Part shown: positions 62-64,000 of the stretch, piece after piece
How positions within the stretch are numbered: the stretch's first letter is position 1
Layout: every line of letters begins with the position of its first letter
NCBI GenBank assembly: GCA_937920585.1
Contig: CAKZSB010000144.1
Span: 1-64,000, forward strand
Direction of reading: 5' to 3'
DNA: 64,000 bases
Source: an uncultured Granulosicoccaceae bacterium
GTDB taxonomy: Bacteria > Pseudomonadota > Gammaproteobacteria > Granulosicoccales > Granulosicoccaceae
Notes under the pieces: model-generated
What the model was told of the DNA's origin: nothing
Database searches by the model: none
What the model saw: only the letters and a program-made list of their open reading frames with translations
Position numbers and translations under genes: made by a program

Positions 62-97
62 CTAGTGCTCTGACAACACTAAAAATTGGAATACAGT

Positions 98-167
98 ATG
101 GCCTTTGATGTGCCGGTTAGGGCCCAGTTCAGCTATCACACCTGGAGTGCGGCACATCAAAAGCCAT
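98..167. repeat. 18-bp inverted repeat flanking a 34-bp spacer
   Basis: Arms 98-115 (ATGGCCTTTGATGTGCCG) and 150-167 (CGGCACATCAAAAGCCAT) are complementary at 17 of 18 positions. The element sits in the gene-poor stretch 62-331, about 165 bp beyond the stop of the minus-strand quinoprotein operon. Neither side has a T-run, so it is not a typical intrinsic terminator. It could be a small non-autonomous repeat, a REP-like unit or a hairpin that stabilises mRNA 3' ends. I see no gene I would support in 62-331. Confidence 0.75.
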
Positions 168-331
168 CCCCTGCGGGCGAGCGCCAAAAGTTGCCATCGC
201 TGCGTTGCGCTCACTCACAATAGAACAACTATTATTCGATCGCGCGCCTTGCGCTGACCACTTCTTCACTCGCTGTATCCCAACTTTTAATATTGTCAAA
301 GCACTAGGCATCTGGCGCGGCAGCACAACGG

Positions 332-18161: not shown

Positions 18162-18194
18162 GTTCTTGTGCCGATGACTCATCGGCACAAGAAC
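18162..18194. terminator. 33-bp perfect palindrome between the 127-aa gene and amt
   Basis: GTTCTTGTGCCGATGA pairs with TCATCGGCACAAGAAC around a central C: 14 bp of stem with a 5-nt loop, or 16 bp if fully extruded. It starts 11 bp beyond the stop of the upstream minus-strand gene. The minus-strand flank is ATCTTGATATATT, only partly U-rich. It probably ends or attenuates the ligase-synthase transcript ahead of amt, or acts as an RNA processing or stability element. Confidence 0.7.
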
Positions 18195-62751: not shown

Positions 62752-62938
62752 CACAAATTGCGGGTTCGGAGCTAAAGCTATTGCACAAGACACACCTTAT
62801 TTTGCCTCCGGCGGGGTTTGTGCCGTCGCCGCTGCGACAAATTGAATCTAATCATGGCTTGGCGCACAATGCTGTGCAGTGACAAGGCGGCTACCCTGCC
62901 CTGCCAGCTCACAATCACGAGCCGACGGAAGCAATACT

Positions 62939-63487
62939 TTGCATAACGAGTACAAGAAAATAATCGAGCAGATCGGTGAAGATCCCGAGCGTGAGGGTCT
63001 GTTGAAAACACCGGATCGAGCCGCACGAGCGATGGAATTTCTGACCCAGGGCTACGGCCAGACCCTGGAGCAGATCCTGAACAACGCAGTCTTTGAATCC
63101 GACAGCGATGAGATGGTCATTGTGCGCGACATCGAGCTTTATTCGATGTGTGAACATCATCTGTTGCCATTCATCGGCAAGTGTCACGTCGCCTACCTGC
63201 CGCGCGGCAAGGTAATCGGGCTTTCGAAGGTCGCGCGCATCGTCGATATGTATGCGCGACGACTGCAGATCCAGGAGAATCTGACCAAACAGATCGCAGA
63301 CGCAATGGAGACTGTCACCGGTGGTCAGGGCGTTGGTGTGGTGGTGGAGTCGAAACATTTGTGCATGATGATGCGCGGCGTGCAAAAGCAAAATTCAACC
63401 ATGACTACCTCAGTCATGCTGGGCCGGTTCAAAACCGACATCAACACCCGCAACGAGTTTCTGAATCTGATTCGCGGCCCAACCTGA
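62939..63487 (+). CDS. folE: GTP cyclohydrolase I
   Basis: A 182-aa FolE converting GTP to dihydroneopterin triphosphate for folate. [68 protein letters not shown] and [10 protein letters not shown] are intact, and the zinc ligands are the two Cys and His in CEHH and LCMMMRG. The start is uncertain: TTG 62939 with GGAAG upstream, or GTG 62879 (202 aa); I prefer TTG because the extra residues do not look conserved. It also supplies the folate used by Tdm. Confidence 0.93.
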
Positions 63488-63513
63488 TACCACACGCTTT
63501 AATTGCATTGCTA

Positions 63514-63566
63514 TGCATAATTATGCAAAATTTCCCGACTTACACGTTTTCCCGGAAATTTTGCAT
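63514..63566 (+). promoter_or_regulatory. Long inverted repeat over the tupB ribosome-binding site
   Basis: A perfect palindrome TGCATAATTATGCA (63514-63527) overlaps the left arm of a 15-bp inverted repeat. Arms are ATGCAAAATTTCCCG (63523-63537) and CCGGAAATTTTGCAT (63552-63566), 14 of 15 complementary, with a 14-nt loop. The right arm contains the Shine-Dalgarno (GGAAA) and the first base of the TTG start of the permease. It could be an RNA hairpin that blocks translation or a protein operator. Confidence 0.75.
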
Positions 63567-64000
63567 TGTCAGATCTACGGCTGGCCTTTGAGCTGGCGCT
63601 AGGACTGGTCTACCCCATCGATCCAACATTGCTCGAGATCGTATTGCTGTCGCTGAAAGTCAGCCTCAGTGCCGCCGTGCTCGCATGCCTGTTCGGCATG
63701 CCGCTGGGCGCTCTGCTGGCGACCAGTGACTTCCGCGGCAAATGGGTGCTGACCCTGATCGTCAACACGCTGATGGGCATGCCGCCCGTGGTAATCGGTC
63801 TGCTGGTTTACATCATGCTGTCGAGTGCCGGTCCGCTGGGCTGGCTGCAGTGGCTCTACACACCGCGAGCGATGATTCTGGCGCAGGTGATTCTGATCAC
63901 CCCGATTGTGGCGGCTCTTGCGCGCGAGGTGATGAGCGAGCAGCACCGGCAATTGCACTGGCAACTTCAATCACTGTGCGTCGCGCCGGCCCGTGCCGTG
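63566..64000 (+). CDS. tupB: Tungstate ABC transporter permease, TupB-like (truncated by window end)
   Basis: Open from TTG 63566 to the right edge, 145 codons, no stop. It begins MSDLRLAFELALGLVYP, then LLEIVLLSLKVSLSAAVLACLFGMPLGALLA and NTLMGMPPVVIGLLVYIML, a pattern of the TupB/ModB permease with the PPVV membrane turn. GGAAA is placed seven bases upstream of the TTG. The family imports tungstate (or molybdate, sulfate). The TupA and TupC genes must lie beyond the window. Confidence 0.82.
   Translation, partial: MSDLRLAFELALGLVYPIDPTLLEIVLLSLKVSLSAAVLACLFGMPLGALLATSDFRGKWVLTLIVNTLMGMPPVVIGLLVYIMLSSAGPLGWLQWLYTPRAMILAQVILITPIVAALAREVMSEQHRQLHWQLQSLCVAPARAV

Follow-up and report, generated by a model that had tools for sequence, protein, structure and literature searches.

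In an uncultured Granulosicoccaceae bacterium, the tungstate-type transporter operon tupBCA is preceded by an inverted repeat. Each of its two arms is a copy of one half-site of 12-13 bp, TGCAWAATTTCCG, that recurs upstream of tupB in other proteobacteria. We interpret this repeat as probably an operator for transcription from the tupBCA promoter, bound by a regulator of the TaoR family through which a plentiful supply of tungstate or molybdate would turn uptake off. The repeat lies near the end of the window, by which we mean the whole stretch of 64,000 nucleotides that was analyzed. Binding by a TaoR-type regulator, an oxyanion as the ligand and repression as the sign of control are inferred by analogy with characterized systems. 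The analysis offers a concrete operator model for tungstate uptake in AOR-bearing Gammaproteobacteria, comprising a half-site matrix, phased spacing and promoter overlap, together with a testable spacing rule for the regulator family.

In the proposed mechanism, a TaoR-family regulator, with an excisionase-type HTH and a periplasmic-binding-protein-like sensor, would occupy three half-sites on one face of the helix. Half-sites 1 and 2 span the spacer and the -10 element of the putative promoter, whereas half-site 3 sits on the putative Shine-Dalgarno sequence, a short way 3' of the predicted start. Tungstate or molybdate would bind the PBP-like domain, and the bound regulator would bridge the start site and exclude RNA polymerase, so that the promoter would be blocked and tup uptake turned off while the oxyanion is plentiful.

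The inverted repeat and its half-sites

The gap between folE and tupB (78 bp, 37% GC) holds both a perfect 13/13-bp inverted repeat and a perfect 14-bp palindrome (Table 1). Extension of the repeat inward by two bases per arm (63523-63537/63552-63566) gives 14 pairs of 15, the form in which it appeared in the preliminary description. Other features reported there are also borne out: a putative Shine-Dalgarno sequence, GGAAA (63554-63558), lies inside the right arm, the TTG start of tupB, which occupies the position of the ATG in aligned relatives, abuts this arm, and the palindrome overlaps the left arm. As a conserved unit the palindrome was ruled out, since its counterpart in relatives is the non-palindromic TGCAWAATTAGGCA; the palindrome itself is therefore local. 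It is more aptly seen as a direct repeat of two half-sites with a 10-bp step, half-site 2 beginning 10 bp after half-site 1 and its first bases completing the palindrome.

Table 1. Features at and around the tupB start. Positions are those of the window, except where the contig is named.
Feature	Position	Strand	Description
folE	62939..63487	+	GTP cyclohydrolase I; PF01227, E 4.9e-77; upstream neighbor
Putative -35	63503..63508	+	TTGCAT; TTGNNN exactly 17 bp before CAWWAT in 10/12 aligned family sequences
Half-site 1	63514..63525	+	TGCATAATTATG; matrix score 14.5; promoter spacer; relatives carry TGCAWAATTAGG
Palindrome	63514..63527		TGCATAATTATGCA; perfect, 14 bp
Left repeat arm	63523..63535		ATGCAAAATTTCC
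Half-site 2	63524..63536	+	TGCAAAATTTCCC; matrix score 18.0; left repeat arm; overlaps -10
Putative -10	63526..63531	+	CAAAAT; CAWWAT kept here in 12 family sequences
Predicted transcription start	63537..63538	+	Inferred from the -10 position
Half-site 3	63553..63565	-	TGCAAAATTTCCG; matrix score 18.1; right arm, over putative Shine-Dalgarno GGAAA
Right repeat arm	63554..63566		GGAAATTTTGCAT
tupB	63566..64279 (window ends 64000)	+	Tungstate-type ABC permease; TTG start
tupC	contig 64272-65006		Beyond the window
tupA	contig 65009-65836		Beyond the window

A comparable repeat (loop 3-60) is present in 5% of Markov-1 simulated 64-kb sequences, a frequency that would allow the repeat to be a functionless product of chance; shuffles of 63488-63640 (the gap plus flank) yielded one in 1 of 20,000 cases. 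It is its retention in relatives that places the repeat beyond chance: of 122 regions upstream of tupB, 36 hold a pair of sites, against 5 of 12,100 shuffled regions, and the half-sites are kept across proteobacterial classes, making a chance origin extremely improbable. The sole other perfect inverted repeat of at least 13 bp with a loop of at most 60 in the window, at 18162-18194 (15 bp, arm GTTCTTGTGCCGATG, loop 3), looks like a candidate terminator or another hairpin.

The half-site recurs 5' of tupB in Granulosicoccaceae, in many Alphaproteobacteria and in some other Proteobacteria. When a matrix was built solely from loci of other families (12.7 bits, consensus TGCATAATTTCCG), it picked out the three sites of the window with scores of 18.1, 18.0 and 14.5; a score of 14 is reached by 0.1% of random windows from the same loci. 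Among the g4 relatives, TGCAWAATTAGGCAAWATTTCC precedes tupB and is followed about 10-25 bp on by GGAAATTATGCAG or near variants. The left block is found with up to three mismatches in 16 of 48 family genomes; matches upstream of tupB with no more than two mismatches come from the source genome and nine g4 relatives, and nearly all of the remaining matches carry three. The right half-site stops just short of the start codon in the window and includes the ATG in g4 relatives, and this retention despite a shifted start-codon offset indicates that coding or Shine-Dalgarno constraint alone is insufficient to explain it.

Promoter overlap, helical phasing and the RNA alternative

The putative promoter is interleaved with the half-sites, CAWWAT overlapping half-site 2 in all 12 aligned family sequences. 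A generic promoter scan of the window did not report this TTGNNN-N17-CAWWAT promoter, because the hexamers are weak. With the half-sites overlapping the promoter in this way, the predicted mRNA, which begins near 63537, leaves out the left arm and would thus carry no hairpin.

The preliminary description had proposed either an RNA switch or an operator for tungstate control. In the former case a leader hairpin would hide the Shine-Dalgarno sequence and be opened or closed by tungstate, or by temperature in a thermosensor. The segment 63523-63566 does fold well as RNA (-13.9 kcal/mol, z -5.1), with the stem over the Shine-Dalgarno sequence, and such a hairpin could form in folE readthrough RNA, which is predicted to be its sole carrier; RNA from the predicted start shows no excess of folding over its shuffles (z +1.1). 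Compensatory changes were sought in 28 site pairs, and the values lie within the shuffle range both for pairing (78.3%, against 77.4% in shuffles) and for covariation (0.099, against 0.088). Each arm holds to the consensus independently of its partner. The similarity of arms to their own rather than to permuted partners is slightly higher over 36 pairs (p 0.03), an effect that is lost when the family is taken by itself (p 0.12). An Rfam search of the site returned a single sub-threshold chance match and no credible family. The pair counts and the predicted transcription start both speak against an RNA switch, which we regard as very unlikely. The conservation check proposed in the preliminary description, fixed sequence as opposed to compensatory change in relatives, thus returned half-sites that are conserved and fixed in sequence. 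The tungstate-operator part of the earlier proposal is well supported at the sequence level by these fixed half-sites, their phasing, the promoter overlap and a TaoR-type neighbor of tup in relatives, while the RNA-switch part is not sustained.

The spacing of the half-sites also bears on this question, as an RNA loop needs no helical-turn phasing of its arms. Distances between inverted half-sites fall at 18-21, 27-30, 38-40 and 49 bp, in steps of about 10 bp, and the 29 bp between half-sites 2 and 3 of the window are in phase with the family spacings. Phase concentration at period 10 (R 0.73) was matched in 0 of 5000 simulations, although the p values for spacing are optimistic because related loci are not independent. 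The phasing is present in each subset (R 0.93 in the family and 0.65 in the named loci); distances of 25, 36 (twice) and 100 fall off it.

Of the features described here the phased spacing stands out most, and as an operator feature of this regulator family it may be undescribed. Tentatively, it could amount to an undescribed modular rule, in which inverted pairs of one 12-13 bp half-site, separated by two, three or four turns of the helix, are employed at tup promoters of several proteobacterial classes, such that the regulator must bridge the transcription start flexibly; we put this forward as a possibility that is somewhat doubtful.

The candidate regulator

In 42 of 80 named loci, a gene encoding HTH_17 and PBP_like domains is found no more than 5.5 kb from tupB. 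Such a gene adjoins tup in most g4 genomes, where it is convergent with tupA. Both domains were confirmed in the tup-adjacent regulators of L068, L134, L136 and L146, and the tup-adjacent regulator scores above cut-off with the TIGR01764 excisionase model; no relatives of the regulator were found in the PDB by sequence. Within the family, at a site score of 11, site and adjacent regulator occur together (15/17 vs 0/25), and a descent-aware test, with five independent contrasts of which three were concordant and none discordant, was not significant. Three g4 genomes with no PF12727 match (G007, G011 and G023) have weak sites or none, and in G013 and G027 the regulator is present and the sites are weak. 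As for the named loci grouped as lacking the regulator, 21 of these 26 genomes carry a strong PF12727 match, so the group is no negative control. Site scores are lower in the few named-locus genomes without PF12727, except for L124, which has a site of 14.5 and no PF12727 match in the records searched.

The good site at L124 would be expected if the repeat were the operator of a different regulator, an unrecognized Mo/W or global one common to these tup promoters, as would the source assembly (91.6% complete), in which neither PF12727 nor a relative's protein detected a TaoR-type gene. The source contig, however, ends right after tupA in a repeat with some 40 copies in the genome, just where relatives carry the regulator, and this lack of a match therefore does not establish its absence; the strong, intact sites suggest that the source organism would possess it. 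The HTH_17 and PBP_like gene is moreover the one that recurs beside tup where sites occur. ModE was ruled out as the binder, as none of 48 family genomes has a member above the TIGR00637 cut-off. A global regulator is difficult to reconcile with a paired site that is essentially restricted to the tup promoter in the source genome, and we consider a different regulator unlikely overall. The genome-wide half-site search in the source genome gave 17 near-matches vs 10 for a reversed control pattern, with the tup site as the sole strong, closely spaced pair, although at L198 a further inverted site of lower strength lies at a distance of 79 bp; a wider regulon in that genome was rejected on these grounds.

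Known systems and genomic setting

Several known systems resemble the proposed TaoR-type operator in part. ModE is a molybdate-responsive repressor of mod operons that acts when the oxyanion is plentiful, and TunR is a tungstate-responsive regulator of sulfate reducers, combining a XerC/D-like DNA-binding domain with a ModE-like sensor domain, that places transporter genes under tungstate-dependent control. The arrangement proposed here has in common with ModE the repression of a Mo/W-type ABC transporter and with TunR the control of transporter genes by tungstate, but ModE belongs to another protein family, one with no member above cut-off in this bacterial family as described above, and the tup-adjacent regulators differ from TunR in their HTH_17 and PBP_like domains. 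In Desulfovibrio, TaoR itself reportedly acts as a repressor of the tup genes when tungsten is replete; to our knowledge, few members of its family have been studied at the bench.

TaoR is a regulator of Mo/W transport with HTH and PBP-like domains (Rajeev et al. 2019, Environ Microbiol 21:784, as cited in PMC11980592), and the tup-adjacent regulators of the relatives have the same domains. The target is likewise a tungstate-type transporter operon; the differences are that the lineage here is gammaproteobacterial and that the regulator gene is absent from the source assembly. The preliminary description had called the arrangement unfamiliar for tup genes. Control of Mo/W transport by a regulator family of such architecture is already on record (PMC11980592), and the arrangement is therefore not new in kind. 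The Moco RNA motif (PMC2408646), a structured RNA and riboswitch candidate found ahead of Mo/W genes, is similarly a leader element of such genes, but it is an RNA structure and has no match at the tupB site.

With regard to the genes themselves, TupB and TupA are good matches to the NCBIfam tungstate models of the same names yet fall under the equivalog cut-offs, and tungstate is for this reason a likely rather than a proven substrate. Proteins of the AOR family (PF01314) are encoded in 47 of 48 family genomes, including the source genome, which has three such genes outside the window (G000:C148:11900-13084, G000:C184:4106-5284 and G000:C244:11648-12637). Characterized AOR-family members use tungsten, and these genes point to tungsten use in these Gammaproteobacteria. 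The start codon of folE is uncertain, the longest frame opening at 62879; folE is also found immediately 5' of tupB in several g4 relatives (L008, L009, L012, L014, L016 and L017).

The contig extends 2 kb beyond the window. The repeat at its end is a dispersed, MITE-like element that measures about 225 nt and has terminal inverted repeats that are imperfect (TAGTGCT..TGACAA..TAAAA.TTGG.ATACAG); it is found at about 40 places in the genome, including window positions 66-291 (+) and contig positions 65837-66061 (L002:5837-6061). The latter copy, which follows tupA and terminates the contig, seems to provide the TAG stop codon of tupA with its first bases.
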